NCBI GenBank assembly: GCA_944385365.1 | Contig: CALWWW010000002.1 | Location: forward strand, 1-64,000 | DNA from: an uncultured Oscillospiraceae bacterium | GTDB taxonomy: Bacteria > Bacillota > Clostridia > Oscillospirales > Oscillospiraceae | Length of the DNA: 64,000 nucleotides | Direction: 5' to 3' | In this document: piece after piece, positions 438 through 21,688 of the stretch | How positions within the stretch are numbered: the first letter of the stretch is position 1 | Layout: each line of letters begins with the position of its first letter | Made by a program: the position numbers and the translations under genes | The notes under the pieces: generated by a model | What the model was told of the DNA's origin: nothing | Databases searched by the model: none | The model's input: the letters and a program-made list of their open reading frames with translations, nothing else

Positions 438-451
438 AGGAGGTGACTGTT

Positions 452-3194: not shown

Positions 3195-3199
3195 TATAT

Positions 3200-3524: not shown

Positions 3525-3551
3525 ACTGGCCGACGATGGAGGGATATCAGA

Positions 3552-4025: not shown

Positions 4026-4065
4026 GCGTTTCATTAGGCTACACCCCAGTGAGACATAGAAAAAG

Positions 4066-4131
4066 TGTCCCATTAGAGTTGTTTCTTTGAGTTTGGTACG
4101 TTCCAACAAAGAGGAGGACCCTAATGGGACA
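4066..4131. repeat. Inverted repeat in front of the resolvase gene
   Basis: TGTCCCATTAG (4066-4076) is repeated in perfect inverted form as CTAATGGGACA (4121-4131), 44 bases apart and ending 24 bases before the resolvase start. Such a pair could be subsites of a recombination (res-like) region or a binding site controlling the resolvase. The role is inference. Confidence 0.5.
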
Positions 4132-4155
4132 TTTTCATCAGAAGGAGACATCTCA

Positions 4156-4698: not shown

Positions 4699-4786
4699 TA
4701 GCTATTTCTTATGCTGAACATTGCCATTAACACCTGTTCCGCGGTTCCTATCAACCGTGGGACAGATATTTTATCAATCAGCCCTG

Positions 4787-6139: not shown

Positions 6140-6173
6140 AGTTTCCAACTCCACTGACATTCAAAATAGTATT

Positions 6174-6275
6174 GATCTATGCGGTCAGAAATTGCGGTTT
6201 AACCGGGCTTACAGAATACACGGATGGGATAATGCCTGTCCAATGGTTGAGCCGCGATTTCTGACCGCATGGATT
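6174..6275 (+). other. Very long hairpin, probable structured RNA
   Basis: Bases 6174-6204 pair with 6245-6275 over 31 consecutive positions around a 40-base loop. Five of the pairs are G-U wobbles when read as plus-strand RNA; they would be A-C mismatches on the other strand. That asymmetry points to selection on plus-strand RNA rather than on DNA. There is no T-tract, so it is not an ordinary terminator. It lies between the divergent genes at 4787 and 6363. It could be a small RNA, a leader of the DUF3102 gene, or an oriT-like fold. Confidence 0.6.
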
Positions 6276-6362
6276 TATTAGACCACTGCCATAAAAGTAT
6301 CACACCTTTTCTGGCTTGACAAGTGATATGATCGCTGTATCAAGAAAAAGGAGGATCGTTTT

Positions 6363-7082
6363 ATGCAAAAAATAAAAGAACTGGATGCGGTCAACACAGG
6401 TCTGATACAGGATGGCACAGATATCAAACAGCAGACGACTGGCCATCCGGACTTTGATCTCGTGACCATTGCTGCCGAGATACGAACACTGAAGAGGCGG
6501 ACCATGGATAACATTCTGCAAATTGGTACACTGCTTATGGAGGCAAAAGAACAGTTCTTTCGTTATGGACAGTGGCTGCACTGGTTGCAGTATAACGTTG
6601 ATATTTCGGTTCGAAATGCAGAGCGTTATATGCAATTGGCAAAAGCGTATTCAAATTCGACATTGGTGTCGGATTTGACCACCACAAAGGCCCTGCAACT
6701 GCTGAAAATCCCAGATGAGGAACGAGAAGCTTTCATCCGGGAACCACATATGGTATCCGTAAGCCGGGGGAATGAGACAAAATCAATTTCGGTTGCAGAG
6801 ATGACCACTTCGGAATGCAGGCAAGCGATCAGGGCATGGCAAAAAAGCAATACAGATCAAAAACCGTATACCTTCAAACCGATGCACAGGCCCAAACCAG
6901 GTAGTACTCAGGACTTTATAAAGGAAATGACTTCCATAAATAAACATCTGGATATCATAGAAAAGTTTCTGAAATGCGGCATTGAAGATTCAACTTTTCG
7001 AGAAGCATGTGTAGAGAAACTCATTCCGCTGCATGACAGAGTACAAAAATTGTTCTTATCGGCTCAGAAGGAAACTGAATAG
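6363..7082 (+). CDS. DUF3102 domain protein
   Basis: A 239-residue protein. Residues 30-135 match the DUF3102 pattern: IAAEIRTLKRRTMDNILQIG, LMEAKEQFFRYGQWLHWL, followed by a helix-turn-helix-like stretch (ISVRNAERYMQLAKAYS) and KALQLLKIPDEERE. Such proteins are common in integrative elements and resemble ParB-type DNA-binding domains; function is unknown. The start is supported by AGGAGG eight bases upstream. A TTGACA at 6316 may be part of its promoter. It precedes the coupling-protein gene by 79 bases and may help maintain or regulate the element. Confidence 0.8.
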   Translation: MQKIKELDAVNTGLIQDGTDIKQQTTGHPDFDLVTIAAEIRTLKRRTMDNILQIGTLLMEAKEQFFRYGQWLHWLQYNVDISVRNAERYMQLAKAYSNSTLVSDLTTTKALQLLKIPDEEREAFIREPHMVSVSRGNETKSISVAEMTTSECRQAIRAWQKSNTDQKPYTFKPMHRPKPGSTQDFIKEMTSINKHLDIIEKFLKCGIEDSTFREACVEKLIPLHDRVQKLFLSAQKETE

Positions 7083-7161
7083 AATGTGTACACATGAAAA
7101 GTTTTATCAAGAGGGCTGGAAACGGGCAAAGCAAAAAAGTCAAACAATAGGAGCAATAGAT

Positions 7162-9048: not shown

Positions 9049-9106
9049 AAATAAGGAGGGGTCCACTTACACATTGCATCTATTTCAGAAGGAAGGAGAG
9101 AGCTTT

Positions 9107-9862
9107 TTGGCAAATTATCATTTTGAAGTGTCCATTATCAGCCGCGGCAAAGGACGTTCTGTTACTGGTGCGGTCAGTTATATCTGTGGGCGGAAATTGC
9201 ATGATAAATATCGCAACCAAACATACCGGAATCCTCGAAAGGATGTAGTATGGCAAAAGGTGTTTTTGCCAGCAGATGTACCACAGAAATATGGAGAGTT
9301 TCAATATCTGTGTGATGAGATAGAGCGGGCTGAAACACGCTGGGATGCCCGTACTGCACGGCTGTTTATCGGCTCGTTACCCAATGAGCTTTCGCCAGGA
9401 GAGTTGGTCCGGATCGTCCATGAGTTTATTGATAGCAACTTTGTTTCCCAAAACTTATGCGTGATTGCTGCAATCCACAGAGGATACAATGCAGAGTCTC
9501 CATCCCACAACAATCCTCATGTTCATATTATTGTTCCTACCAGAACAATCGGAGCAGATGGCTTCAGCAAAAGGAAAGACCGTGAGCATGACAAAAAACG
9601 GTATATGGATATCTGGCGAGAACAGTGGGCGGATGTGCAGAACCGAGCCTATGAACGCAATCAAATGGATATTCGAGTCAGTCATGAAAGTCTCGCGGCG
9701 CAGGGGAAACGAAACCGTGAGCCGACAATCCACCTCAGCCGCATTGATTGGCAGAGGGAACAACGGGGGGAACGCACTCTTGCCGGTGATCGAAAGCGTA
9801 AAATCCAGGAGCACAACCGTGAGAAGGATGCACGGAGATGGGAAATGGAACTGTCACGTTAA
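9107..9862 (+). CDS. MobA/MobL-family relaxase
   Basis: The nicking enzyme that would start DNA transfer at oriT. The 251-residue protein has the family N-terminus (NYHFEVSIISRGKGRSVT, AVSYICG) and the metal-binding histidine cluster HNNPHVH at residues 134-140, followed by the helical KKRYMDIWREQWADVQNRA segment. The start is TTG at 9107, chosen because AAGGAGAG lies 7 bases upstream and the product then begins exactly at the conserved region. Only the relaxase domain is present, with no helicase or primase extension. It overlaps nothing and follows the coupling protein by 58 bases. Confidence 0.88.
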   Translation: MANYHFEVSIISRGKGRSVTGAVSYICGRKLHDKYRNQTYRNPRKDVVWQKVFLPADVPQKYGEFQYLCDEIERAETRWDARTARLFIGSLPNELSPGELVRIVHEFIDSNFVSQNLCVIAAIHRGYNAESPSHNNPHVHIIVPTRTIGADGFSKRKDREHDKKRYMDIWREQWADVQNRAYERNQMDIRVSHESLAAQGKRNREPTIHLSRIDWQREQRGERTLAGDRKRKIQEHNREKDARRWEMELSR

Positions 9863-9916
9863 ACGCATACGAGATTGAAATAACCATATATTCTCTCTTT
9901 GCGGAGGTGAAAAATT

Positions 9917-10618
9917 ATGGAAAAAAGTGTTCTTAAACTGGAACGCAGCACGGATAAGGGGTCTACATTTCGGACGATCTTCAAAACCCGTCACGGCAGG
10001 GTGGTTTTTCTGTCCGTGCAGCTCCGAGATTCGTATTGTACCATACAGGACTGCTTTTATCTGGACCGCAATCAGGGACGGGCGGCGCCTGCACGTTATA
10101 GTGCCAGACCCAAAATGCTCCGAACCATCCAATTTCCGGCGGAACAACTGCTATCAGTCATAGAAGCTGAGCTGGACAAAAAATTCTATGGTGTCATATA
10201 CACCCAGAATGAAAACACCGGCTTGCCGCTGGATGCCTATATCCAGAAAAAAGCAGAACAGGAAAAACGCAAATACCGTTTCCTGATTATGGTGGGAGAA
10301 GGAGAGCGTCACAGTGACCTGCCGATTCGTTTACGTACACGTCTAAAAAATAAACTTCATCGATCAATCTATGTAGAATTGGCCTACTACAAGGAGGGAC
10401 AAGGAGTCGTCAAACAGTGTTGCTACTACGACCGGCAGTACAAGTGGCTGGAACATCAGGTCTTACCACCTATGCTGATCAGTTGCTTCTTTCCTTACAC
10501 GAAACAGGGCATTTTGACCCTGCTGAACCATGAAATATGCTGTGATTTTACGCATATTCTGGTAACGGACGGAATCGATCTGGATTCCAACCACACCCCT
10601 CTGTGCGGGGCAGTTTAG
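9917..10618 (+). CDS. Hypothetical mobilization-module protein, 233 aa
   Basis: I do not recognise a named family. The protein is basic, soluble and without membrane segments. It has two similar halves in composition, each with a hydrophobic core (YRFLIMVGEGERHSDLP; FTHILVTDGIDLD), cysteine and tyrosine pairs (CCYYDRQY) and several Arg/Lys-rich stretches. The start has GGAGGTG nine bases upstream. It lies between the relaxase and the recombinase, so a role in transfer or in integration is plausible but unproven. Confidence 0.6.
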   Translation: MEKSVLKLERSTDKGSTFRTIFKTRHGRVVFLSVQLRDSYCTIQDCFYLDRNQGRAAPARYSARPKMLRTIQFPAEQLLSVIEAELDKKFYGVIYTQNENTGLPLDAYIQKKAEQEKRKYRFLIMVGEGERHSDLPIRLRTRLKNKLHRSIYVELAYYKEGQGVVKQCCYYDRQYKWLEHQVLPPMLISCFFPYTKQGILTLLNHEICCDFTHILVTDGIDLDSNHTPLCGAV

Positions 10619-10629
10619 GAGGTATTGAG

Positions 10630-10782
10630 ATGGCAAAGCTGCTGGAAGAGTATACTGATGTCAAAGCAGTCCGGCATCGGGTGGAGCATATCACGCTCCC
10701 CCAGGAAGATCAAATCCATAAGGAGAGGATGATGGAGGAGCTGACCCACATATTGGTTAAGAGAACAAAAATGCCAGCCTGA
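10630..10782 (+). CDS. Small protein, 50 aa, upstream of the recombinase
   Basis: A short charged, helical protein (MAKLLEEYTDVKAVRHRVEH...) with GGAGG eleven bases before its ATG. It begins 11 bases after the previous gene and ends 38 bases before the large serine recombinase. Small genes in this position of serine-recombinase elements are often excision or directionality factors; here that is only a positional inference. Confidence 0.5.
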   Translation: MAKLLEEYTDVKAVRHRVEHITLPQEDQIHKERMMEELTHILVKRTKMPA

Positions 10783-10820
10783 GCAAAATCATTCTATGAG
10801 CAGGAGAGGAGGTGTCATAT

Positions 10821-12347
10821 ATGATCGTTCTGTACGCGCGAAAATCAGTAGAGCGGGAAAACAGCATCAGCTGTGAGACGCAGATTGAATACTGCAAAAT
10901 GATGATGAAACCCGAGGAACGGGGCGAAAAGGTCGAGATTTTTGTAGACAATGGCTTTTCTGGCGGTAATATCAATCGAGATGGCTTTCAGAATATGATG
11001 AAGCTGGTCCGCCAGGGGAAAGTCAGCAAGGTCATCGTCTATAAGCTGGACCGAATCAGCCGCTCTCTGTCTGACTTTATGAATATCCTGCAAGAATTCA
11101 AGGAACATAAAGTGGAGTTTGTATCCTCTCAGGAATCATTTGACACCTCTTCTCCCTATGGGGAACTGATTGTTAAGATCCTGATGGTATTTGCGGAATT
11201 TGAGCGGACTTCCATTATCAATCGTGTTACCCAGGCCTATGCGCACCGCAGCGAGATGGGTTTCTATATGGGAGGCCGCAGACCGTATGGATTTGAATTG
11301 GTGCCTGCTATCATCCACAATGTCAAAACAAAAAAGCTCAATCCCATTCCTGCCGAGGCCGAGCAGGTGCGATATATCTTCGAAGTCTATGCGCAGGAAA
11401 ATGTGTCGCTTCGGAGATTGCAGGATCTTCTGATTGCGGAGGGCAAGCAGCCAGTGAACGGAAGCCACTGGACCACAGCAAAGCTCTCTACGCTGCTGAG
11501 AAATCCCATCTACGTCAGAGCCGATTCTGATATTTACGATTATTACGACAGGCAGGGAACACAGATTACCACGGATCTCTCTCTGTTCACCGGTGAGTAT
11601 GGGGCCCAGCTGTACGGGCATACCAAGCACGATTCTGCCAATTCCGACTGGTCGGACATGAAACTGGTGCTGCTAACCCATCCCGGTCTGGTGGATTCTG
11701 ATATCTGGCTCAAATGTCAGAGAAAGCTGGAGAAGAACCGGCAAATCACCAACAGCTACAGCAACCCCACCAGCTGGCTGGCTGGGAAAGTGATATGTGA
11801 GCAGTGCGGACATACCATGACCACCATCAAGGGAAAGCCTACTCAATCCGGTGAGGTACGGCGGTACTTCAACTGTACTGGAAAATCCCATAAGAAGATC
11901 TGTCCCGGCCCAAAGGGGTCTGTCTATGCGGAGGATCTGGAGAACATGGTTTACGACTGCATTGCAGAAAAACTGGCAGATCTGAAGCAAACCGGGCATC
12001 GCAGCCGAAACGTGGAGCGTGGGGAAATCAATGATCTGAAGCTGAAGATCAAGGCGATCGAGCAACAGGAAAAGCAGTTATTGGACACAATGCTAACTGG
12101 TGGATTTAATGATGCCCTACTGACCATCGCCAATCAAAAGGCAACTCAGCTCAAACAAGACCGATTGGCCTTGTATACACGGATAGAGGAATTAAACAGC
12201 AGAAAGGAGGAAACGGATGTTGTCGTCAATTTGGCAAAGTCCTGGCAAACCGCTGACTACCAGCGAAAGAAGGCCGTTGCGATGATTATGATACATAAGA
12301 TCCTGATCCGGGAAGATGGCAGCATACAGATCATCTGGAACCTATAG
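10821..12347 (+). CDS. Large serine recombinase of the mobilizable element
   Basis: A 508-residue recombinase expected to integrate and excise the element. The catalytic domain begins MIVLYARKSVE with nucleophile Ser9 and continues through KLDRISRSLSDFM and the family E-helix. A recombinase domain (about 155-260; RRPYGFELVP, RRLQDLLIAEG, LSTLLRNPIYV) is followed by a zinc ribbon (CEQCGH ... C ... C) and a C-terminal coiled coil. The ATG at 10821 follows AGGAGAGGAGG; a GTG at 10812 is too close to that site. It is the last gene before a strong terminator, the usual edge position for element integrases. Confidence 0.92.
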   Translation: MIVLYARKSVERENSISCETQIEYCKMMMKPEERGEKVEIFVDNGFSGGNINRDGFQNMMKLVRQGKVSKVIVYKLDRISRSLSDFMNILQEFKEHKVEFVSSQESFDTSSPYGELIVKILMVFAEFERTSIINRVTQAYAHRSEMGFYMGGRRPYGFELVPAIIHNVKTKKLNPIPAEAEQVRYIFEVYAQENVSLRRLQDLLIAEGKQPVNGSHWTTAKLSTLLRNPIYVRADSDIYDYYDRQGTQITTDLSLFTGEYGAQLYGHTKHDSANSDWSDMKLVLLTHPGLVDSDIWLKCQRKLEKNRQITNSYSNPTSWLAGKVICEQCGHTMTTIKGKPTQSGEVRRYFNCTGKSHKKICPGPKGSVYAEDLENMVYDCIAEKLADLKQTGHRSRNVERGEINDLKLKIKAIEQQEKQLLDTMLTGGFNDALLTIANQKATQLKQDRLALYTRIEELNSRKEETDVVVNLAKSWQTADYQRKKAVAMIMIHKILIREDGSIQIIWNL

Positions 12348-12348
12348 C

Positions 12349-12388
12349 AAACCGTCAGGGCATCGTGGCCCCGACGGTTTGTTTTTTG
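12349..12388 (+). terminator. Terminator after the large serine recombinase
   Basis: CAAACCGTC pairs with GACGGTTTG, with an inner GGGC/GCCC step, followed by TTTTTTG. It separates the mobile element from the DUF3990 gene. Confidence 0.75.
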
Positions 12389-12404
12389 ACTGCCGCCATT
12401 CATC

Positions 12405-12434
12405 TTGACAGAAAATAGGTTGGTGGGCTACAAT
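12405..12434 (+). promoter_or_regulatory. Sigma-A promoter for the DUF3990/DUF3791 pair
   Basis: TTGACA at 12405-12410 and TACAAT at 12429-12434 are separated by 18 bases, 35 bases ahead of the gene at 12470. Confidence 0.6.
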
Positions 12435-12469
12435 TTAATCATAGAAGGCTACACACAGGAGGATAAGAC

Positions 12470-12934
12470 ATGATCCTATATCACGGAAGCAAAACCATCG
12501 TGGAGTCTCCGGAAATCCGGATTCAAAAGTACAATAAGGATTTCTATTTTGGCTTTTACTGCACGCTGTTCCCGGAACAGGCCATTCGCTGGGCCATCCG
12601 TTTTGATGGGGTCGGATATTTGAATGAGTATTGCTATACACCCCATGATAGCCTGAAGATCAAGCAGTTTCCGGAGATGTCAGAGGAGTGGCTGGATTTT
12701 ATCGTGGCCTGCCGGTTGGGAAAGCCACATGATTACGATATTGTGGAAGGTCCCATGGCGGACGATACGATTTTTAACTATGTTCAGAACTTTGCAGACG
12801 GGAAAATCAGCCGGGAGGCTTTCTGGGAGCTGGCCAAGTTTAAACGGCCCACCCATCAGATCAGCTTCCATACCGCCCGTGCTTTGACAACGCTGTCCTT
12901 TGTGAAGGCAGAGGAGGTGCGCGATGAAGAATAA
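12470..12934 (+). CDS. DUF3990 protein, putative ADP-ribosyltransferase toxin
   Basis: A 154-residue protein with the DUF3990 signature: LYHGS at residues 3-7, then KDFYFGFYCTLFPEQAIRWA, matching the 'DFGxGFYxT' pattern. DUF3990 belongs to the ADP-ribosyltransferase fold group by family knowledge, and the LYHGS histidine would be the first residue of an H-Y-E-type NAD pocket. The gene has AGGAGGA upstream and overlaps the next gene by 11 bases. Pairing with a DUF3791-like gene is typical of this family and suggests a toxin-antitoxin or regulated-modification module. Target unknown. Confidence 0.75.
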   Translation: MILYHGSKTIVESPEIRIQKYNKDFYFGFYCTLFPEQAIRWAIRFDGVGYLNEYCYTPHDSLKIKQFPEMSEEWLDFIVACRLGKPHDYDIVEGPMADDTIFNYVQNFADGKISREAFWELAKFKRPTHQISFHTARALTTLSFVKAEEVRDEE

Positions 12935-13367
12935 CAGCGCCCTGTTTTACACGTGCAGCCTGATCGAGTATATCGGCCGGGATCGGAAGCTGAAACGCTC
13001 GGAGGTTGTCCATGCTTTGGGGGAGAGCGCCATCCGGCGAATTTATCGCTATGCCGATGTGTTCCACTGTGAGCCCATCGAAAAGACAGCAGATGACTTT
13101 ATCACCAATCTGAATATCCCGGAGGGGGACTTTGACAATGTAGCCTCCTGCCGCTACACGGTGCCGGACTACTGGACCATTGGCGAGGTCTATGAGCGGC
13201 TGATCGAGGATCTCTCTGGCAGCAGGGCAGAGGATGTTCTGAAAAATCTGATGGATGTCTATACCTCCTGGATCGACGGCGTGATCTCCAACTACAACAG
13301 CGATTTCTACTACCAGTCCCGGGAGTATATTCTGGAATGCTATCGAGAGGGCAGAGTCTGTGCCTGA
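12924..13367 (+). CDS. DUF3791-like partner protein, 147 aa
   Basis: The first 70 residues (FYTCSLIEYIGRDRKLKRSE, VVHALGESAIRRIYRYADVFH) match the small helical DUF3791 family that commonly accompanies DUF3990. Here it is extended by about 75 residues (NSDFYYQSREYILECYREG) that I do not recognise. GGAGGTG precedes the ATG, and the 11-base overlap with the upstream gene implies coupled translation, as expected for a neutralising partner. An antitoxin role is inferred from the pairing only. Confidence 0.65.
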   Translation: MKNNSALFYTCSLIEYIGRDRKLKRSEVVHALGESAIRRIYRYADVFHCEPIEKTADDFITNLNIPEGDFDNVASCRYTVPDYWTIGEVYERLIEDLSGSRAEDVLKNLMDVYTSWIDGVISNYNSDFYYQSREYILECYREGRVCA

Positions 13368-13577
13368 AAAGCTATACTGGCAGGTGCCCAGACCGGTCAG
13401 CCGGTAAAACACAAGAGCATTGACGATGATGCAGAGATCAACCACAACCGGGACCGGGTTGCCCAAAAGCCTTGGCAAGCCGGTTTGATTCGGACCGAGT
13501 ATATCAACCGTGAGGATGTATATCTGGCATTTTCCATGGCGAAATGACACTGGCAAAGATAAAATGTAAGGATGTGA

Positions 13578-14099
13578 ATGCAAATGCTGAATACTGTAAC
13601 TGATGCCTATGCTGGCGCCATACAATCCTATACGAAGTTTACTGCCTCCAACCGGCTTTCCGACGGAACCTGCTTGCAGACAATTTCCCAAGACACACAA
13701 ACCACGGAACAGACTTCCCGGTACGACAAGCTGGAACTGTCACAGGAGCAGAGCCAAGTCACATTGGATGTACCTGATGAAATTACCTGTGAGATTCCAA
13801 GAGCATGGACCATTATGGGTGAAACAATGGAAAGTTTTAACGATCATCTGCAATGGAGCCTGGAGGAAGCGGACAGGAAGAATCTCTCCTTTGGTGACCG
13901 GCTGACATTTCTGAAAGAAGAAGGTCAGAAATGGGTGGAGGATAAACGGCAAAATGACCCGGAAATGTTTGCGGCATGGCTGCAAATTAACAAAAGCCAT
14001 ATCCAGGCAGGTGAAGCCCATTTGGTGGGGCTGCCCGCCGACTTTACCATGGAAGATTACAACTTTTATGTAAAAGAGCCGTTTTCTGCTTGGGCATAA
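13578..14099 (+). CDS. Hypothetical protein, 173 aa
   Basis: An unrecognised acidic protein without signal peptide or membrane segments. The N-terminal 70 residues are low-complexity (Thr/Gln/Ser-rich) and end in YDKLELSQEQSQV. The rest is helical and ends with NFYVKEPFSAWA. Similar 'YDxLELS' linkers occur in other unknown proteins of this bacterial group. AAGGA lies six bases before the ATG at 13578; a second ATG at 13584 is possible. It is a single-gene unit closed by the terminator at 14155. Confidence 0.55.
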   Translation: MQMLNTVTDAYAGAIQSYTKFTASNRLSDGTCLQTISQDTQTTEQTSRYDKLELSQEQSQVTLDVPDEITCEIPRAWTIMGETMESFNDHLQWSLEEADRKNLSFGDRLTFLKEEGQKWVEDKRQNDPEMFAAWLQINKSHIQAGEAHLVGLPADFTMEDYNFYVKEPFSAWA

Positions 14100-14154
14100 T
14101 AAAGGGAGATATCTCCACGCTTGAGGAGAGAAAATTTCATGTGTTAGCTGACGT

Positions 14155-14188
14155 AGTCCAGAGAGCATTTGCTCTCTGGACTGTTTTT
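14155..14188 (+). terminator. Terminator of the gene at 13578
   Basis: AGTCCAGAGAGC pairs with GCTCTCTGGACT (ending 14182), followed by GTTTTTG. Confidence 0.8.
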
Positions 14189-14201
14189 GTCTGCGCAAAA
14201 C

Positions 14202-14236
14202 GATAGCCCAAGGAGCATATCTCCCTGGGCTATCGT
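14202..14236 (-). terminator. Terminator of the SprA-like gene
   Basis: GATAGCCCA (14202-14210) pairs with TGGGCTATC (14226-14234); on the minus strand it follows the stop of the gene at 14238. It probably works in both directions. Confidence 0.7.
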
Positions 14237-14237
14237 T

Positions 14238-14897
14238 TTATGCTACAGCAAAGAATGGGGTTTGTTTCCCCTGATTAGTGGGATCTTGAACTGGCTGCTC
14301 CTGGGCTGCACGGGTGCTGGTACGGGTGGTACCACCGGACACGTAAACCTTGCCGCACTCCGGACAAATGGCCGTGTGATAGGTCACCGATTGAGAGACA
14401 ACCTCCCGATCCTCCCGTTGGGCCTTGGCCTGTTCCCGAACCACGTGCTCCTGCTCATGGCCCCGCACGGCTGCCGCCGCCTGCTCCGGTGCCACGTTGG
14501 TGGGCGTCTTGAAGGAGACTCCCGGATCGTTGGAGCCGTCCTGATATTTCCGCTCCTTACAGGTCTGGCACTCGCTTTCTTTCATGACCTCCTGGGCAGA
14601 TTTGGACTGTTCCACTTCCGCATTCAGTTCTTCTTCGCTGAGATATTGGATGCGGCCGCGTACCGCCATCTCAACAGGGTCGGCGCCTTCCCGGTAATTG
14701 GAGACAGCCGCTGCACCGGTCAATGTGACGGCGCTGGGCTGGTCCCGGCTGACTGCGGGAGCAGGCGTCACCGGGGTAACCGGCTGATCTGTGGCGCGAG
14801 GCTGTGCACGGGACACAACGGTGGTCTGGCCAGCCGCGGCAGTCCGTCCCCAATAGGCACTGGACGCACCCCAACCAACTCCATATAGACCAAGCAT
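14238..14897 (-). CDS. SprA-related putative metalloprotease (CJM1_0395-like)
   Basis: A 219-residue protein. After a variable Gly/Ala/Pro-rich N-terminus come the family features: CQTCKERKYQDGSNDPGVSF, then PTNVAPEQAAAAVRGHEQEHV, with a putative zinc-binding HEQEH, and a second CPECG pair near the C-terminus. The family is annotated as SprA-related or putative metalloprotease; biochemical activity is not established. The start at 14897 is preceded by GGAGG at correct spacing, whereas the longer frame starts without one. It has its own sigma-A promoter and terminator, so it is monocistronic. Confidence 0.75.
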   Translation of the reverse strand: MLGLYGVGWGASSAYWGRTAAAGQTTVVSRAQPRATDQPVTPVTPAPAVSRDQPSAVTLTGAAAVSNYREGADPVEMAVRGRIQYLSEEELNAEVEQSKSAQEVMKESECQTCKERKYQDGSNDPGVSFKTPTNVAPEQAAAAVRGHEQEHVVREQAKAQREDREVVSQSVTYHTAICPECGKVYVSGGTTRTSTRAAQEQPVQDPTNQGKQTPFFAVA

Positions 14898-14961
14898 ATT
14901 CTGCACCTCCTTTCGGGGCCAGCAGACTTTCGCCTGCTGCGTCTGTTCTTTTTGTAGTTTC

Positions 14962-14989
14962 ATTATATCGCAAAATCAGTAATGTGCAA
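14962..14989 (-). promoter_or_regulatory. Sigma-A promoter of the SprA-like gene
   Basis: Read on the minus strand: TTGCAC (14984-14989), 16-base spacer, TATAAT (14962-14967), about 65 bases upstream of the start. Confidence 0.65.
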
Positions 14990-15006
14990 GACCAATGCCA
15001 AAATTT

Positions 15007-15408
15007 TCATGACAATCGCTTACTTAACTTCGTATGGTTCGCTTCACCAAAGCGCTGGAAGTGGACGATTTCCCGTTCCCGCAGGAACTTGATGGCGTCG
15101 TTCACATCGGGGTCATCAGACAGCCGCAGGATATTGTCATAGGTTTTCCGGGCTTTCTGCTCGGCTGCCATATCCTCCGACAAATCGGCAATGGGGTCGC
15201 CGCTGCACTGCATACCGGCAGCGCTCCAGGGAGTGCCGGAGGCCGCGGCAGGGTAGACGGCGGCAGTATGGTCCACAAAATAGGGAGCGAACCCCTTGGA
15301 TTTGATCTGCTCCTCGGTGAGGTTACGAGTCAGCTGGTGGACAATGGTGCCAATCATCTCCAGGTGTCCCAGTTCTTCTGTACCGACAAAGGGTTCAAAA
15401 TGGAACAT
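15007..15408 (-). CDS. cotJC: 3' half of cotJC (manganese-catalase-type coat protein), interrupted
   Basis: Residues from GTEELGHLEMIG to the stop are the C-terminal two thirds of a CotJC/manganese catalase, with the metal-ligand motifs EELGHLEM, EDMAAEQKA and REREIVHFQRFGE. The apparent N-terminus (MFHFEPFV) is not CotJC sequence, has no ribosome site and comes from the inserted element. The missing N-terminal 64 residues lie at 20170-20362 on the same strand. Both pieces contain the core at the GTE codons, and joining them restores the frame to give a 186-residue protein. It is silent or non-functional unless the element excises. Confidence 0.9.
   Translation of the reverse strand: MFHFEPFVGTEELGHLEMIGTIVHQLTRNLTEEQIKSKGFAPYFVDHTAAVYPAAASGTPWSAAGMQCSGDPIADLSEDMAAEQKARKTYDNILRLSDDPDVNDAIKFLREREIVHFQRFGEANHTKLSKRLS
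15375..15386. repeat. attL core of the cotJC intervening element
   Basis: CTTCTGTACCGA (plus strand), identical to 20170-20181. It covers the Gly-Thr-Glu codons of cotJC. Recombination between the two copies removes 4,795 bp and rejoins cotJC in frame. Confidence 0.85.
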
Positions 15409-15454
15409 CCATACTTTTTCAATGGTATAGTTGCTGGTAGAATGCGGCCAAGGG

Positions 15455-16339
15455 TCACTCTGCCAGATGCAGCTGTTGTTCTAACTGCTGTAAAAATAAC
15501 TCCGCTGGTTTGGAGAACAGTTGAGACCTCTTCCAAACCAGATACATCCCCAGTTCCAGGCGGGGCTCCAAAGGTCGGAAGCAGAGACTGCTGCCGGTGG
15601 TATTGATGAGTTTATCCAAGGCGAAAGCATACCCCATACCCTCGTCCACCATCAGCGAAGCATTGTAAATCAGATTGTAGGTGGCGACGGTATGCAGTTC
15701 CGACGGTTCTCGCCGCAGCCACCGAAAAAGTCCACTTTTATTATCCACCTGACGGGACAGAATCAATGGTTGATTCCAAAGGTCTTCAGGAGTAACAAAT
15801 GGTTTTTGCGCTAATGGACTGTCACGCCGCATTAAAACGCCCCAGGTGTCCCGCATGGGAAGTTCCAGATAGTGATATTTTGTTTTATCAATATCGCCCA
15901 GGAGCATACCAAAATCCAGCAGTCCCTTGTCCAGTTGTTCACAGACATCCGCAGCATCGTCACTGACGATGTGGAACTGTACCGCCGGATATTGTTCCTG
16001 CAGAAGGCGGGCAGCCCTGGCAATCTGCCGGACACCGTCGGTTTCCCCAGTACCGATATAGATATCTCCGCTGACGGTTTCCGGAGATTGCATGATCTCC
16101 TTTTCCGTCCGTCCCACCAGGTCCAGAATCTCCTGGGCCCGCTTCCGAAGATGCAGCCCCTCCTCGGTCAGGGTGATGGTTCGGCCACCTCGAATCATCA
16201 GCTGCTTTCCCAGCGTCTCCTCCAGCTCTTTGAGCTGCCGGGAGAGGGTAGGCTGGGTCAGGTGCAGCGATTGGGCCGCCGCCGAGATGTTCTGCTCCCG
16301 AGCCACCGCAAGAAAATACTGCAAAACCCGCAATTCCAT
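15455..16339 (-). CDS. LysR-family transcriptional regulator
   Basis: A 294-residue LysR protein. The N-terminal winged helix-turn-helix (residues 1-60; LQYFLAVAREQNISAAAQSLHLTQPTLSRQ, broken here only as a motif description) is canonical, followed by a substrate-binding domain. It is divergent from the KTSC-alcohol dehydrogenase operon, the usual layout for a LysR regulator of the adjacent genes, so it probably controls the dehydrogenase in response to a small molecule. It lies inside the cotJC element and would be lost on excision. Confidence 0.9.
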   Translation of the reverse strand: MELRVLQYFLAVAREQNISAAAQSLHLTQPTLSRQLKELEETLGKQLMIRGGRTITLTEEGLHLRKRAQEILDLVGRTEKEIMQSPETVSGDIYIGTGETDGVRQIARAARLLQEQYPAVQFHIVSDDAADVCEQLDKGLLDFGMLLGDIDKTKYHYLELPMRDTWGVLMRRDSPLAQKPFVTPEDLWNQPLILSRQVDNKSGLFRWLRREPSELHTVATYNLIYNASLMVDEGMGYAFALDKLINTTGSSLCFRPLEPRLELGMYLVWKRSQLFSKPAELFLQQLEQQLHLAE

Positions 16340-16442
16340 GGATACCGCCTCCTTACCGTTTCCAGTATACCGCCTTTACCGCAGACTGGCAAGTTTCGCG
16401 TACAGATACCCCGCATCGACTTTGGGCAGCACCTCGTTTTGT

Positions 16443-16471
16443 TTTACAATCGGTGAAAAATCTGCTATACT
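16443..16471 (+). promoter_or_regulatory. Sigma-A promoter for KTSC-adh
   Basis: TTTACA (16443-16448), 17-base spacer, TATACT (16466-16471), in the LysR/adh divergent region. Confidence 0.65.
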
Positions 16472-16512
16472 ATGGGTGTAGATCCACCGGACGAAAAAGG
16501 GGAGTGGTCACA

Positions 16513-16734
16513 ATGCAGCAATACGGCAATATCAGCGGTGTTTCCGATGTGGCAGCCTTTGAAATTGCTCCAACGTATATTGATGTCAAATTTCATAATT
16601 CTTCCAGAGTCTATCGGTATTCCTATACGTCAGCCGGAGAAAGTCATGTGGAAACCATGAAGCAGCTGGCAGCCCAGGGGTATGGATTAAACGCCTATAT
16701 CAACAGAATGGTACGGTATCGATATGAAAAATGA
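16513..16734 (+). CDS. KTSC domain protein, 73 aa
   Basis: A 73-residue protein matching the small KTSC domain: IDVKFHNSSRVYRYSYTSAG in the middle and GYGLNAYINRMV at the end. KTSC domains occur alone or fused to nucleic-acid enzymes; function is uncertain. The ATG at 16513 follows GGAGTGG. Its end overlaps the start of the alcohol dehydrogenase gene by 11 bases, so the two are translationally coupled. Confidence 0.75.
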   Translation: MQQYGNISGVSDVAAFEIAPTYIDVKFHNSSRVYRYSYTSAGESHVETMKQLAAQGYGLNAYINRMVRYRYEK

Positions 16735-17773
16735 AATGCTTGCATATACGTATGTCCGGCAAGGGGAGTTTGCATTGCGGCAAAAGCCCACGCCGGTGCT
16801 GGAGCAGGACCGGGACGCCATCGTGCGGGTAACCCTCAGCAGTATCTGTACCAGCGATCTGCATATTAAACACGGGTCCGTTCCCCGGGCGGTACCGGGT
16901 ATCACCGTGGGCCATGAGATGGTTGGCGTGGTGGAACAGGTGGGCAGTGCAGTCACCACACTCCGTCCCGGCGATCGGGTAGCGGTCAATGTGGAGACTT
17001 TCTGCGGCCAATGCTTTTTCTGTCAGCACGGCTGGGTCAATAACTGTACAGACCCCAACGGCGGTTGGGCGCTGGGCTGTCGGATTGACGGCGGGCAGGC
17101 GGAATATGTGCGGGTGCCCTATGCTGACCAGGGATTGACAAAAATTCCTGACAACGTGACGGATCTTCAGGCTTTATTGGTAGGTGATGTATTGGCCACC
17201 GGCTATTGGGCTGCCAAGATTTCGGAGATTCAGCCCCAGGATACGGTTCTGATTTTAGGTGCAGGCCCCACCGGTCTTTGTACGCTGCAATGCGTCCGGC
17301 TTCACCGCCCTCATTGTATCCTTGTGTGTGACAAAGATGTGGAACGTTTGGCCTTTGTCCGCCGCCACTATCCGGAGGTCATAGCCGTTTTGCCGGACGA
17401 ACTGCCGGCAGCAGTTCAACAGCACAGCGCGCACGGTGGTGCTGATGTGGTGCTGGAAGTGGCAGGCAGTTCCGACACGTTCCGTATGGCTTGGGAATCC
17501 GCTCGCCCCAATGGCATCGTCACAGTAGTGGCCCTGTATGATGGGCCCCAAGTGCTGCCCTTGCCGGAGATGTACGGCAAAAACCTGACTTTTAAAACAG
17601 GCGGAGTAGACGGTTGCCATTGTCAGAAAACCTTGTCGCTGATTGCGGAGGGGAAACTGGATACCACACCGCTGATCACACACCAATTCCCACTGGCTGA
17701 AATTGAACAGGCCTATGCACTGTTTGAAGCGCGGCGGGACGGCGTCATCAAAGTAGCGATTCAATGCAGCTGA
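16724..17773 (+). CDS. Zinc-dependent alcohol dehydrogenase (MDR family)
   Basis: A 349-residue medium-chain dehydrogenase oxidising or reducing an alcohol/aldehyde with NAD(P). The catalytic zinc ligands are in SICTSDLH (Cys), GHEMVG (His-Glu) and the later Asp; the structural zinc site is CGQCFFCQHGWVNNC. A Rossmann motif (LGAGPTGL) follows near residue 180. Substrate cannot be deduced. It is cargo of the cotJC element, probably regulated by the divergent LysR gene. The strong terminator at 17794 ends the operon. Confidence 0.88.
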   Translation: MKNEMLAYTYVRQGEFALRQKPTPVLEQDRDAIVRVTLSSICTSDLHIKHGSVPRAVPGITVGHEMVGVVEQVGSAVTTLRPGDRVAVNVETFCGQCFFCQHGWVNNCTDPNGGWALGCRIDGGQAEYVRVPYADQGLTKIPDNVTDLQALLVGDVLATGYWAAKISEIQPQDTVLILGAGPTGLCTLQCVRLHRPHCILVCDKDVERLAFVRRHYPEVIAVLPDELPAAVQQHSAHGGADVVLEVAGSSDTFRMAWESARPNGIVTVVALYDGPQVLPLPEMYGKNLTFKTGGVDGCHCQKTLSLIAEGKLDTTPLITHQFPLAEIEQAYALFEARRDGVIKVAIQCS

Positions 17774-17793
17774 TTCAGAATAATATTGGATGG

Positions 17794-17828
17794 AAAACCG
17801 ACTCTGCTTTATATGCAGAGTCGGTTTT
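17794..17828 (+). terminator. Bidirectional terminator between adh and the small membrane genes
   Basis: AAAACCGACTCTGC pairs with GCAGAGTCGGTTTT. It serves the adh operon on the plus strand and, with its A/T flanks, the small genes on the minus strand. Confidence 0.85.
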
Positions 17829-17832
17829 GTCA

Positions 17833-18003
17833 TTATTTCCGGCGGCGCAGCCATCGCACTACCAACACAATCAGCACAATGATTCCGACAAGGCCCAACA
17901 CGGACAGCAGCATCTCGGTTTGACCGGTTACAAAGACAACAGTTGGGCCGTCAGCGCCGCCAATGACGCCGAGAGAGGCTAAAAACGTGGAAGAAATCTG
18001 CAC
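17833..18003 (-). CDS. 56-aa membrane protein with a GGADGPT motif
   Basis: Starts with GTG at 18003, seven bases after GAAAGGAG on the minus strand. The product has SLGVIGGADGPTVVFVTG at residues 10-27, then one membrane helix (about 32-49) and a positively charged end (RWLRRRK). The GGADGPT segment is the signature of the beta subunit of sodium-pumping oxaloacetate/methylmalonyl-CoA decarboxylases, yet the protein is far too short to be that subunit. Similar mini-proteins occur in Clostridia; their role is unknown. It is 27 bases downstream of the gene at 18031 in the same operon. Confidence 0.7.
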   Translation of the reverse strand: MQISSTFLASLGVIGGADGPTVVFVTGQTEMLLSVLGLVGIIVLIVLVVRWLRRRK

Positions 18004-18030
18004 TGGAATGCTCCTTTCTGGTTGTTAAGT

Positions 18031-18207
18031 TCAGTATTTCAGTACAAAGTAGATTACATAGACCCAACTGAGCAGCCCATGGAAAATTGCCCATCCCACA
18101 GAGTGCCAGTTGACATAGCTGATCACCATGGCCAAGGCACTGCCAAAGGTGATACCGGTTTTGACAGTTTTGCGGACGGTGTACTGTTTCTGTTTCGTCT
18201 CTTCCAT
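18031..18207 (-). CDS. Small membrane protein, 58 aa
   Basis: Starts MEETKQKQYTVRKTVK at 18207 after GGAGG on the minus strand. It carries two hydrophobic stretches (TGITFGSALAMVISYV and AIFHGLLSWVYVIYFVL), so it is probably a two-pass membrane protein with a basic cytoplasmic N-terminus. It forms an operon with the GGADGPT mini-protein gene. No function is known. Both are inside the cotJC element. Confidence 0.65.
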   Translation of the reverse strand: MEETKQKQYTVRKTVKTGITFGSALAMVISYVNWHSVGWAIFHGLLSWVYVIYFVLKY

Positions 18208-18296
18208 GGGTTTGCCTCCTGAACTTGTGATATACACATCAACATCATAACACAATTTACGAATTTGCAAGAACAGATATGGGATGGCCTTTTTGG

Positions 18297-18325
18297 TCAA
18301 TTTAGACGGTTACACCGCATAAGTT
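18297..18325 (+). promoter_or_regulatory. Possible sigma-E-like promoter before the recombinase unit
   Basis: TCAATTT (18297-18303), 14-base spacer, CATAAGTT (18318-18325). The spacing and the CATA of the -10 agree with mother-cell sigma-E promoters, but several positions deviate. A tentative call. Confidence 0.25.
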
Positions 18326-18347
18326 GGACCGAAAGGAGGCAGGGGAC

Positions 18348-18569
18348 ATGTCCAAACAATTTGCAAAACTGGAGGGAATTCTCCAGGACCATTCCATTAC
18401 GCCGGAGACAGATGCGGTCTTTTTATTCCATCTGAAAAAAGCGCTGCTGCTGGCTTTGAAAGAGCAGGGGCAGCTCAGCGCTATGCAATGCCGCGCGGCC
18501 TGTGAACGTCTGGAGCGGCAGCAGCGCAGCGCCATCTGGCCAGCACCGGTTCCAGGAGAATCGGTATGA
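18348..18569 (+). CDS. Small protein coupled to the cotJC-element recombinase, 73 aa
   Basis: Begins MSKQFAKLEGIL after AAGGAGG and ends with an ATGA overlap into the recombinase gene, so the two are translated together. It is helical and charged, with a leucine/alanine-rich centre (FHLKKALLLALKEQ) and CRAACERLERQQR. I do not recognise the family. Its size and coupling make it a candidate recombination directionality factor or recombinase partner, an inference from position only. Confidence 0.6.
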   Translation: MSKQFAKLEGILQDHSITPETDAVFLFHLKKALLLALKEQGQLSAMQCRAACERLERQQRSAIWPAPVPGESV

Positions 18570-20089
18570 TCTATGTCGCCAGCTATTGCCGGGTATCCAC
18601 CGACCACGAAGACCAACACAATTCGTTTGCGTCACAACAGCGATATTTTCGAGACTATATCCAGCACCATCCTGATTGGGAATTGTATGCCGTTTATGCT
18701 GATGAGGGTATCACCGGAACCAGCACCAAAAAACGCACCCAGTTCAATCGAATGATGGAAGATGCCTACGCCGGAAAATTTCAGTTGATCCTGACCAAGG
18801 AGGTCAGCCGGTTTTCCCGTAATATTCTCGATACCATCGCCTATACACGGGAGCTGAAAGCATTGGGGGTCGGCGTTCGCTTTCTTTTGGATGGTATCTG
18901 TACGCTGGACTCCGACGCCGAGCTCTATCTGTCCATTATGGCATCCATGGCCCAGGAGGAAAGCCGCAAGACCTCCAGCCGGGTCACCTGGGGACAGACC
19001 CGGCAAATGGAAAAAGGCGTGGTCTTCGGCCATTCTCTACTGGGGTATACCGTACAGAACGGAATACTCACTATAGAACCAGACGGTGCGGAGCTGGTTC
19101 GGCAGATTTTTGAACTGTATGCCGTGAAGCAAATTAGTACGGCGGAGATTGCACGAATTTTGACTCAGGAGGGCCACCTGACACATAGCGGCCGCAGGAA
19201 GTGGACAGCCAATGGTGTGCTCAAAATTTTGAAAAATGAGAAATATGTGGGAGACCTGGTGCAGAAAAAGACATATACACCGGATTATCTGTCCCACGAA
19301 AAGCGAAAAAATACCGGGGAAATCCCGCTGATTTGCATAGAAAACCACCATACGCCCATTGTCAGCCGTGAACTCTGGAATATGGCACAGTCACGAATGG
19401 CAAAGAACCGGAAGCAGCCCGGCAGCGGCGGACAGTCCAATCGATACATCTTCTCTGGGAAAATTCATTGTGGGCAATGCGGCGGTGTGTTTGTGGGGCG
19501 GTTTCGGTATGCCAGGAATGGTACCAAAACGCGCCGATGGTGCTGCAATACGGCGGCAAGAGACGGCTCGAACGCCTGTTCTGTGGGGAAGCTGGTCCGG
19601 GACGATGACGCTATGCACATGCTGCGCACGGCGCTCATGCAGTTGCACATGGACCGTGATGCGGTGATCGCTCAAGTTGCCGCGCTGGCTATGGAGGTGA
19701 TTCGAGCTGATGCATGGGACTTGGCAGAGGACCCGGAACGGCTGGATGCTGAGATGGCACAAATCCGGCGCAAAAAAGAAGCCGCCATGGACGCCTGCTT
19801 TTCCGGTCAGATCACTATGGAGGATTTGACGGCCATGCAGCGGCGGTATGCACAGCAGTTACAGCAGCTGGAGCAGCGGCAGGCAAAAGCCCGGCAACTG
19901 CAAGCAGCCGGACAAGACTTGGAGCAGCGAAAAACCGAGATTGCAGCACAGCTCCAGTCCATCCTGTGTTTGGAGACTGAGAGTGAAGTATTCTGCAAGT
20001 CCATTCTCGAGCGGCTGACCGTATGGAAGGATCGCCATATGGAACTACAGCTGCAGTATTTGCCTCAGGTGTTCTGCTTTAGGGAATAA
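18566..20089 (+). CDS. Large serine recombinase of the cotJC element
   Basis: A 507-residue site-specific recombinase. Catalytic domain: YCRVSTD with nucleophile Ser11, DEGITGTSTKKRTQF, KEVSRFSRNILDTI and the SMAQEESRKTS helix. A recombinase domain (HSLLGYTV, ARILTQEG, VLKILKNEKYVGDL) precedes a zinc ribbon (CGQCGG ... CCN ... C) and a long C-terminal coiled coil. The gene ends 81 bases from the right core repeat, the usual place for the integrase of such an element, and it is opposite in strand to cotJC. It is the obvious enzyme for integration into, and excision from, cotJC. Confidence 0.93.
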   Translation: MIYVASYCRVSTDHEDQHNSFASQQRYFRDYIQHHPDWELYAVYADEGITGTSTKKRTQFNRMMEDAYAGKFQLILTKEVSRFSRNILDTIAYTRELKALGVGVRFLLDGICTLDSDAELYLSIMASMAQEESRKTSSRVTWGQTRQMEKGVVFGHSLLGYTVQNGILTIEPDGAELVRQIFELYAVKQISTAEIARILTQEGHLTHSGRRKWTANGVLKILKNEKYVGDLVQKKTYTPDYLSHEKRKNTGEIPLICIENHHTPIVSRELWNMAQSRMAKNRKQPGSGGQSNRYIFSGKIHCGQCGGVFVGRFRYARNGTKTRRWCCNTAARDGSNACSVGKLVRDDDAMHMLRTALMQLHMDRDAVIAQVAALAMEVIRADAWDLAEDPERLDAEMAQIRRKKEAAMDACFSGQITMEDLTAMQRRYAQQLQQLEQRQAKARQLQAAGQDLEQRKTEIAAQLQSILCLETESEVFCKSILERLTVWKDRHMELQLQYLPQVFCFRE

Positions 20090-20122
20090 CGGCTTGTGTG
20101 TTGAATAAACAGCTGTTCTGTG

Positions 20123-20362
20123 CTACAGTATCTTTGCATGGATTTGACCGGTGGGGTTTCTTTTTGATGCTTCTGTACCGATGTCGGTCAGCAAACCCTT
20201 CAACTCCGGGAAGGGCATGGAATACCGCTGGGACAGATAGCGCAGGGAAGCGCCCAATTCTCCGTCAGGCCCGCCGTATTGGGTCAGTATGATGGTAGCC
20301 AGATCTGGATTGGTATGGGCGATACGTACCGGGTATTGGAGTTTTTTTTCATAAACAAACAT
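20123..20362 (-). CDS. cotJC: 5' half of cotJC, interrupted
   Basis: Residues 1-64 (MFVYEKKLQYPVRI ... QYGGPDGELGASLRYLSQR ... LLTDIGTE) are the N-terminal third of CotJC, including the first metal-ligand glutamate in GELGASLRY. After GTE the frame enters the element and reads 15 unrelated residues to a stop. The start overlaps the stop of the cotJA-cotJB gene (TAATG), as in a cotJABC operon. On removal of 15375-20169 it joins the half at 15007 in frame to restore DIGTEELGHLEM. Confidence 0.92.
   Translation of the reverse strand: MFVYEKKLQYPVRIAHTNPDLATIILTQYGGPDGELGASLRYLSQRYSMPFPELKGLLTDIGTEASKRNPTGQIHAKIL
20170..20181. repeat. attR core of the cotJC intervening element
   Basis: CTTCTGTACCGA, the second copy of the core at 15375-15386, in direct orientation, placed over the same GTE codons in the other half of cotJC. 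Confidence 0.85.
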
Positions 20363-20817
20363 TACTTGGTACCTCCATCCTTCACATAATCCCAGGGCCA
20401 GGGGTCTTGCAGCCAGACATATTTTCCATCCGTGACACCGTCGCTTTGCTGCAAGGGACCGTATTTTGCTTCATAAGTCCGGCGTCCCTGCTCATAAAGG
20501 TCGGTGTACTGCTGGAACAGCTTGGTGGCTTCCGCATCATTTTGGTGGGTATCCAAATAGAGTCCCAGTTCGTGCATGGCGAAGCTTAGCGCCATCAATT
20601 CACCCAGAGGTGTATTTTTCTCCGTCCGGTTGACGAGCCCCATAAAGGGTAAATCCAGTCCGGGAAACAACGTGCCGCGAATCAGGGCTTTAGGGGCTTG
20701 GTAGGTCTCGGCATTTTCCCGCTGAAAGGGAACAAAGGGGTTCGCCAGGGGTGCACAGGCCGGCAGACAACCGTTTTTGTCATTACATGTGGCCGGTCGG
20801 ATCACAGTGGTATCCAA
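20362..20817 (-). CDS. cotJA-cotJB: CotJA-CotJB fusion, spore coat proteins
   Basis: One 151-residue reading frame holds both small CotJ proteins. Residues 20-65 (LANPFVPFQRENAETYQAPKALIRG, split by function here; LFPGLDLPFMG) match CotJA, and residues 70-151 (LGELMALSFAMHELGLYLDT ... DPWPWDY) match CotJB. In most relatives these are separate genes. CotJ proteins are mother-cell coat components. The start is TTG at 20817, supported by AAGGAGG eight bases upstream. It is the first gene of the operon whose third gene, cotJC, is interrupted. Confidence 0.88.
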   Translation of the reverse strand: MDTTVIRPATCNDKNGCLPACAPLANPFVPFQRENAETYQAPKALIRGTLFPGLDLPFMGLVNRTEKNTPLGELMALSFAMHELGLYLDTHQNDAEATKLFQQYTDLYEQGRRTYEAKYGPLQQSDGVTDGKYVWLQDPWPWDYVKDGGTK

Positions 20818-20956: not shown

Positions 20957-21688
20957 ATGAAAAAACCACTGGCTCTATGGCTTGGATGCCTGATTCTTTT
21001 TATCGGCTTGACGCTGGCTGGACTGCACTCCGGAAGCCGCACCACCCGCAGCGGCATGGCGGCGGTTCTGGGCAGTACGGCAGATGGTTATACAGTGGTG
21101 GTAGATGCCGGTCACGGCGGGGAGGACGGCGGCGCTACATCCATTTCCGGCGTACAGGAGAGCCAGATCAACCTGGAGATTGCCCGCCGGACGGATGCGT
21201 TTCTGGCCTTTCTGGGGTTCCCGACAAAAATGATCCGGGAAAGCGATACCGCCATCTATGACGCCCCGGCGGAGACCATCAGTGAGAAGAAAGCATCCGA
21301 CCTAAAAAACCGGGTCCAGATCGCCAACCAAACACCGGGAGCGCTCCTGGTCAGCATCCATCAAAATATGTTTGAAGATGGACGCTACTCCGGCGCACAG
21401 GTGTTTTACGCCGCAACCGACTCCAGTCGGGAACTGGCAGAGCGGATACAGGAAACGCTGCGTAACGCAGTGGCACCGGATAACCAGCGGCAGGTCAAAC
21501 CGGCGGAAACCGTCTATCTGATGAATCATATCCAATGCCCCGGCATCCTCATTGAATGCGGATTTCTCTCCAATGAGGCGGAGGACCTGCTGTTGCAGGA
21601 CGGGGATTACCAAAAGAAACTGGCCCTGGCCATTGGCGTCGGCGTCAACGGCTGGGCTGCAGAGGAGCAGAACGAACGTGAAGTCTAA
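20957..21688 (+). CDS. cwlD: Sporulation N-acetylmuramoyl-L-alanine amidase
   Basis: A 243-residue amidase that removes peptide side chains for muramic-delta-lactam formation in spore cortex, by family knowledge of CwlD. An N-terminal signal/membrane helix (residues 5-22) is followed by an Amidase_3 domain: VVVDAGHGGEDGG (zinc His53), LLVSIHQNMF and ILIECGFLSN with the catalytic glutamate. It is divergent from the cotJ operon and its end overlaps radA by 11 bases. Confidence 0.9.
   Translation: MKKPLALWLGCLILFIGLTLAGLHSGSRTTRSGMAAVLGSTADGYTVVVDAGHGGEDGGATSISGVQESQINLEIARRTDAFLAFLGFPTKMIRESDTAIYDAPAETISEKKASDLKNRVQIANQTPGALLVSIHQNMFEDGRYSGAQVFYAATDSSRELAERIQETLRNAVAPDNQRQVKPAETVYLMNHIQCPGILIECGFLSNEAEDLLLQDGDYQKKLALAIGVGVNGWAAEEQNEREV

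Follow-up and report, generated by a model that had tools for sequence, protein, structure and literature searches.

The cotJC gene, which encodes a manganese-catalase coat protein, lies in pieces on the minus strand of a 64,000-nucleotide stretch of DNA (the window), positions 1 to 64,000 of contig CALWWW010000002.1 (C2) of an uncultured Oscillospiraceae bacterium (assembly GCA_944385365.1, here G000). Codons 1-64, which hold E35, are found at 20171-20362, as located by open reading frame (ORF) and join analysis, a protein search of the whole assembly and alignment with the L. plantarum enzyme 1jku. The middle part, running from behind a direct repeat to codon 176 and holding E65, H68, E136 and H169, is found at 15040-15374, from where the frame reads through ten further residues (NHTKLSKRLS) to a stop (15007-15039). 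Between the two parts lies an element of 4,795 bp, including one repeat copy (element 1; 15387-20181). A repeat search placed the 12-mer TCGGTACAGAAG at both its upstream end (20170-20181, minus strand) and its downstream end (15375-15386, minus strand); read on the plus strand as CTTCTGTACCGA, it occurs just twice in the window, with a spacing of 4,795 bp. When the halves are joined over this repeat, the frame is kept through codon 64 and a single open frame of 186 codons results (...LLTDIGTE-ELGHLEMIG...). An initial annotation of this DNA had described the codon-64 split, its repeat, the in-frame join and a large serine recombinase within the element; coordinates and repeat proved exact, and the join and the recombinase were found as described. 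No second cotJC copy turned up in a protein search of the whole G000 assembly (2.58 Mb, 64 contigs, 91% complete).

The recombinase (LSR1; 18566-20089, plus strand; 507 amino acids) has Resolvase, Recombinase and Zn_ribbon_recom domains above cut-off and lies next to the element end, its gene ending at 20089 and the element at 20181. Its YCRVS motif was aligned with 3g13, and we take the serine of this motif to be catalytic. We estimate at roughly 0.8 the probability that the codon-64 interruption of cotJC is a skin-like intervening element, which the serine recombinase likely excises in the mother cell during sporulation, with the crossover likely at the GG dinucleotide of the Gly62 codon and the reading frame thereby restored. 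LSR1 would carry out the excision with the product of a small neighbouring gene (ORF73) as directionality factor, while expression from a sigma-E-like site would restrict the event to the mother cell and leave the element in place in the spore chromosome. That excision takes place during sporulation is what we infer from sequence. In B. subtilis, cotJC is listed under sigma-E (PMC3416734; this and all other sources cited here are represented by excerpts).

Removing the 4.8-kb element alone gives only 186 residues with ten foreign ones at the end, because a second cut interrupts cotJC at codons 175-177. The initial annotation had taken 186 residues to be exactly the expected size, which does not hold: near relatives of CotJC are mostly 197-199 residues long, and the last ten residues of the window product are read from a second element. 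This element 2 (1-15045, an extent that assumes a single element) is cut by the start of C2; its junction with cotJC, GGTGAAGCGA, lies at 15039-15048 (minus strand), and it encodes a large serine recombinase of its own (LSR2; 10812-12347, plus strand; 511 amino acids). Among natural proteins the closest, P0001, is 198 residues long, matches the window product exactly over residues 1-176 and ends in ...RFGEAMQLLREKLDQKNIYFMNPAIDL, where the window product ends in ...RFGEANHTKLSKRLS. Both elements are complete on one contig of G006, another species of the same genus, in which GAAGCGA stands at both ends of element 2 and the cotJC tail lies beyond the second element with its LSR2, at a distance of 9,258 bp downstream from the break; removal of both elements yields a protein identical to P0001 at 198/198 residues. 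LSR2 would remove element 2, and full-length CotJC of 198 residues would need two independent excisions in G000 as well as in G006.

The contig of G006, which matches CALWXC010000039.1 and comes from an independent assembly, carries the same element 1 at the same codon (4,808 bp) and is 88% identical in DNA to the window over 9 kb. Across codons 1-176 of the split gene, the two species differ at 45 nucleotides and at no amino acid, whereas 2,000 simulations of random change gave a mean of 31.4 amino-acid changes (minimum 22) and a stop in 1,472 runs. The ratio of non-synonymous to synonymous change (omega) amounts to 0.015 over codons 1-64 and to 0 over codons 65-176, and the 45 nucleotide differences without an amino-acid difference indicate that the split gene is under strong purifying selection. 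This speaks against plain site-specific integration, in which a conserved coding site would serve as the bacterial attachment site (attB) and the split cotJC would be a dispensable casualty without developmental excision. Such an origin would fit reports that large serine recombinases often target conserved genes (PMC10083194) and that the catalase activity of CotJC is not important for coat assembly (PMC3533761), as well as one decayed 5' part in genome G030. Given the selection, together with stop-free in-frame joins both at the codon-64 loci with both halves (except L223 and L226) and at other insertion sites, we regard it as quite unlikely.

Element 1 appears to have shared the history of the chromosome. 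Its synonymous divergence (dS) between G000 and G006 is 0.56 for a LysR-family gene, 0.50 for an alcohol dehydrogenase gene and 0.48 for the ORF73 region, compared with 0.51 for radA and 0.45 for cwlD on the chromosome; LSR1 (0.87) and a small ORF (0.19) are outliers. The genes of the element are conserved (omega 0.03-0.20), and these values together with the chromosome-like dS suggest that element 1 was likely kept through speciation. Two further genomes of the genus, G003 and G005, carry an uninterrupted cotJC. An assembly artefact was considered and is unlikely in view of these intact genes, the independent G006 assembly, contigs of the isolates An10, An44 and An386a, and the one-contig genome G103.

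The break also divides the presumed metal site. E35, E65, H68, E136 and H169 of CotJC align with positions 35, 66, 69, 148 and 181 of 1jku, which we take to be the five manganese ligands. The site could then not form while the gene is split, because E35 is on one fragment and the other four residues are on the other. It could be argued that the pieces are separate functional proteins that make excision unnecessary, since both are open frames and the 3' part in the window has an upstream in-frame ATG at 15408. G006, however, lacks that ATG, and its frame starts inside the conserved part; the 5' part runs on into the element with differing extensions; and other hosts have the gene in three or four pieces. 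Together with the parting of the presumed ligands, this makes separate proteins highly improbable.

The control region supports an excision unit that, judged by its layout, resembles that of the B. subtilis skin element, with a small ORF overlapping the recombinase start and a sigma-E-like site about 250 bp upstream. ORF73 (18348-18569, plus strand; 73 amino acids) overlaps the start of LSR1 by 4 bp, and of 53 other loci, 33 have a recognisable homologue in the place just ahead of the recombinase (32 of these were aligned). From its position (compare skr) and conservation, we regard it as a candidate recombination directionality factor. Its predicted structure is a two-helix hairpin (mean predicted local distance difference test score 78.9). 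The sigma-E-like site, TCAATTT-N14-CATAAGTT (18297-18325, plus strand), lies 248 bp 5' of LSR1 and scores 10/15 against a pattern of a GTCA-type -35 box, 13-15 bp and a CATANNNT-type -10 box, for which the threshold was at least 11 of 15. Sites of at least 11/15 were found in 31 of 48 recombinase-upstream regions, mostly 200-315 bp 5' of the start, compared with 9.4% of letter shuffles, a control that overstates the significance since the regions are related; the enrichment is thus suggestive only.

Aligned attachment sites point to the place of crossover. We compared both ends of 31 codon-64 loci, leaving out duplicates, L154 and L226, and found that only two positions, the G pair of codon 62 (Gly), agree between both ends in 31/31 loci. 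The attachment site of the element (attP) forms an inverted repeat centred on this GG, with a mean of 10.35 of 16 matches compared with 2.8-5.8 at shifted centres, and two loci reach 16/16. No such centre at the GG is found in attB, which scores 5.0 there and 7.3 four bases away. A central dinucleotide and a palindromic attP are the usual look of serine integrase sites.

The association of this recombinase family with cotJC extends beyond the genus. Relatives of LSR1 (E<=1e-60) were found in 122 of 300 family genomes searched, and 19 of the 20 best relatives outside the genus adjoin a piece of cotJC whose match ends at codon ~64; in the genome of the twentieth (G205, whose contig matches a contig of Pseudoflavonifractor sp. 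An85) cotJC is broken at the same codon too, with the 5' part ~18 kb away on the same-number contig. Among the best 80 of 204 named loci, some of which are the same genomes as the 20 just mentioned, a by-eye count found part of cotJC within the retrieved surroundings of 62, among them records with the titles Lachnospiraceae and Lactonifactor longoviformis DSM 17459. For 12 of the 18 without such a part, the recombinase has at most 45% identity. Wherever both halves are present at a codon-64 locus, they join in frame and free of stops, except in L223, which is cut again further on, and in L226.

Some of these loci are unusual. L154 (JAQYDI010000110.1) has an uninterrupted cotJC (7717-8247) between a stray 5' and a stray 3' part (6871-11794), as if a copy of the gene were sitting inside the element. 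Lactonifactor longoviformis DSM 17459 (L140, G306) has an intact cotJC (C73) in addition to one that a 9.0-kb element interrupts at codon ~62 (C30), and Pseudoflavonifractor phocaeensis An507 (L056/L078, 401-3858) has a tandem pair of different LSR1-family recombinases beside one cotJC break. At L221 (G038:C10), one of the 31 loci compared for the crossover, a very different recombinase, with about 22% identity to LSR2, adjoins a cotJC break at almost the same position (codon 63-64), and the insertion seems to be an independent one.

Codons 64 and 175-177 are not the only places at which cotJC is interrupted. A search with P0001 of 120 family genomes from 106 genera, with the results sorted by eye and the tail of G077 added from further searches, gave a match in 92, one of which (G076) has a distant paralogue only. 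Of the 91 counted, 53 have an uninterrupted gene (at least 195 residues), 27 have it divided into two or more parts with their meeting point at one of four positions, and in 11 one incomplete piece is seen; for 20 of the 27 split genomes, two or more of the parts share a contig. Where the repeat is readable, the cuts fall at codons 28-35, 62-64, 134-136 and 172-177. If the ligands are those we take them to be, every cut aligns at or near a manganese-ligand segment: the first by E35, the second by E65 and H68, the third on E136 and the fourth behind H169, presumably because the most conserved DNA is where recombinases insert. Several hosts are cut more than once. In-frame joins of 198 residues were obtained for the isolate Flavonifractor sp. 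An10 (cuts at codons 64 and ~175) and for L111/G305 (codons 64 and 135), each from one contig, and G285 (cuts at about 135 and 175, again on one contig) gives 200 residues, with no clear repeat (2 bp) at its codon-135 cut. In Candidatus Evtepia faecigallinarum the gene is spread over four contigs as four pieces, which join to ~202 residues, and Candidatus Agathobaculum intestinipullorum has three pieces, its tail not seen. The join of G193 was excluded from the counts for a one-residue offset, and that of G302 may be one codon short at the codon-135 cut.

Recombinases near the four places fall mostly into separate clades of a FastTree phylogeny with long branches, L221 being the exception. The tree holds 111 of the 150 recombinases collected, most viral loci and rows shorter than 380 residues (including the site-C fragments L219 and L220) having been dropped; rows without an assigned place ("none_seen") inside the codon-64 clade are a product of a 900-bp distance rule and no sign of another site. 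On balance, we lean towards the view that cotJC is a DNA-spliced gene, in which four separate families of serine recombinases integrate beside codons of the presumed manganese-ligand segments, so that in many gut Firmicutes it would be cut into two, three or four pieces and rejoined by several independent mother-cell excisions before the coat can have catalase. The skin-like interpretation of the initial annotation is supported for the recombinase-bearing element and the in-frame junction, to which the selection on the split gene and the layout of the excision unit are added. It remains the likeliest mechanism but is incomplete: the cut at codons 175-177 had escaped it, as had the fact that the window case is one of widespread cotJC insertions at four places.

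The gene content of the two elements bears on a further alternative, namely that element 1 is a general switch or mobile element that excises in any cell, for example upon SOS or stress, with joined cotJC arising by random loss. The cargo of element 1 comprises a LysR-family regulator (15455-16339, minus strand; 294 amino acids), a small ORF (16453-16734, plus strand) that presumably is KTSC-like and has matches to PHROG 17428 (unknown) and, along 60 residues, to PHROG 24656 (virion structural protein), a zinc-dependent alcohol dehydrogenase family protein (16724-17773, plus strand; 349 amino acids), a hydrophobic 56-residue peptide with a weak OAD_beta match below cut-off (17833-18003, minus strand) and a 58-residue peptide for which a family search gave no match (18031-18207, minus strand). 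Element 2 has genes for a small serine resolvase (4087-4698), a type IV coupling protein (T4SS-DNA_transf/TraG; 7033-9048) and a MobA/MobL relaxase (9008-9862), all on the plus strand, and the relaxase and coupling protein beside LSR2 make this stretch look like an integrative mobilizable element. Three ORFs scanned in element 2 of G006 did not show the relaxase; the window copy is truncated at the contig boundary. Between LSR2 and cotJC, two genes have a dS of 0.09 and 0.11 between G000 and G006, which, set against the chromosome-like element 1, suggests that element 2 moved more recently or was exchanged. These mobility genes and the low dS (0.09-0.11) would suit excision in any cell, as would the response of SPbeta to stress as well as sporulation (PMC6957869). 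The scanned ORFs of element 1, however, include neither a conjugation gene nor a clear phage structural gene, although the small KTSC-like ORF matches the virion-protein profile over 60 residues; the element seems to be inherited with the chromosome, and a sigma-E-like site precedes ORF73 and LSR1. A general switch thus retains a small but real chance.

Several results weigh against excision in the mother cell, in addition to the relatedness of the regions in the shuffle control. No excised chromosome, circle or transcript was seen, and one exact junction pattern for the excised circle, searched in viral contigs, gave 0 matches. The cotJC tail was not found in the G000 assembly by protein and degenerate DNA searches, so that the full-length gene of this genome itself cannot be shown, and the source strains of P0001 may never have had the elements. 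ORF73 was unrecognised in 20 of the 53 loci, and its modelled hairpin neither favours nor rules out a directionality function. The sigma-E-like site of the window scores under the threshold, two of the 48 regions have none at all, and the attP palindrome is weak in L111, L224 and L221 (4-6 of 16). In L226 (G030:C53), the 5' part has an in-frame stop and the halves fail to form CotJC, which is likely a decayed split gene. As the activity of CotJC is reported to be unimportant for coat assembly (PMC3533761), selection for excision need not equal that on sigK.

Developmental excision of this kind has well-described precedents. Like element 1, the B. subtilis skin element splits a mother-cell gene (sigK) in frame and encodes a serine recombinase (SpoIVCA) with a small ORF overlapping its start: skr, of 64 codons, lies just upstream of and overlaps spoIVCA, with a sigma-E promoter more than 200 bp upstream (PMC6957869). 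In contrast, its target is a sigma factor and not a coat manganese catalase, it spans 48 kb (PMC3416734) compared with 4.8 kb, the overlap of skr is 101 nt compared with 4 bp for ORF73, and its excision is proven, whereas that of element 1 is predicted. The skinCd element of C. difficile likewise combines a large serine recombinase with a small directionality factor (CD1231/CD1234), which restricts excision to the mother cell; it splits another gene, its directionality factor gene is by locus number not a direct neighbour of the recombinase, and here too excision is proven, not predicted (PMC5025042). Large serine recombinase elements also split sporulation genes in the cases of gin (gerE, B. 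cereus ATCC10987), yin (yabG, C. botulinum) and SPbeta (spsM), gin being likewise described as non-phage. These differ in that each gene holds one element in the excerpts, whereas cotJC can hold several, and yin was found in no other genome according to the excerpted statement of its authors, whereas cotJC breaks occur across many genera (PMC5595907, PMC10747680, PMC6957869). Several elements per gene are known from the heterocyst interruption elements of cyanobacteria (nifD and others), also excised in development, where 10 of 87 interrupted genes have more than one and nifD of Rivularia has four (PMC4874684); those belong to another phylum, to nitrogen fixation and to xis-type recombinases, and LSR1 reaches only 123 of 375 bits with the NCBIfam XisF model, far below cut-off. 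Among full-length large serine integrases, the best PDB sequence match to LSR1 is the SPbeta integrase YokA (PDB 9dxh), a distant one with 47.8 bits over residues 50-369.

The genes named in these sources as split in sporulation are sigK, spoIVFB or spoVFB, spoVR, spsM, kamA, gerE and yabG (PMC6957869, PMC10747680, PMC11222575, PMC4028888, PMC10083194, PMC5595907, PMC4874684, PMC3533761, PMC3416734, PMC5025042). Among the papers listed in searches of the open-licence literature on a split cotJC and on sporulation intervening elements, no case of a split cotJC appeared; C. difficile phi027, considered as an earlier case, was set aside because it adjoins a cotJC homologue and does not lie inside it (PMC11222575). 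Elements of this kind are known. In the literature searched we found no account of cotJC as their target, of this spread, of insertion at four places by ligand codons or of one sporulation gene being cut several times. Sporulation intervening elements have so far been known from few genes, mostly of model species and pathogens; cotJC would be a hot spot across a gut family, with four places, separate recombinase lineages and sometimes several elements at once. If so, developmental DNA excision could be studied in many natural replicates, one could test why mobile DNA finds safe havens in mother-cell genes, and a collection of recombinases with sharply defined attachment sites would become available. 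Automatic annotation may label cotJC as missing or as a pseudogene in about 30% of these genomes (27/91).

Upstream of cotJC in the cotJ operon lies a gene for a fused CotJA-CotJB (20362-20817, minus strand), and a CATAGAYT box precedes the operon in five same-genus genomes. A cwlD-like spore amidase gene, below the NCBIfam cut-off, is divergent from the operon (20957-21688, plus strand). The stretch of element 2 further contains an NAD-dependent DNA ligase with a BRCT domain (717-2738) and a DUF3102 protein (6363-7082). The sigK gene of G000 looks broken as well: profile positions 4-67 are found at G000:C40:2994-3185 (minus strand; L210) near a serine recombinase and positions 109-226 at G000:C23:23246-23599 (minus strand; L209) directly behind a recombinase, positions 68-108 not being found in G000, so that sigK is possibly cut twice or partly unassembled.

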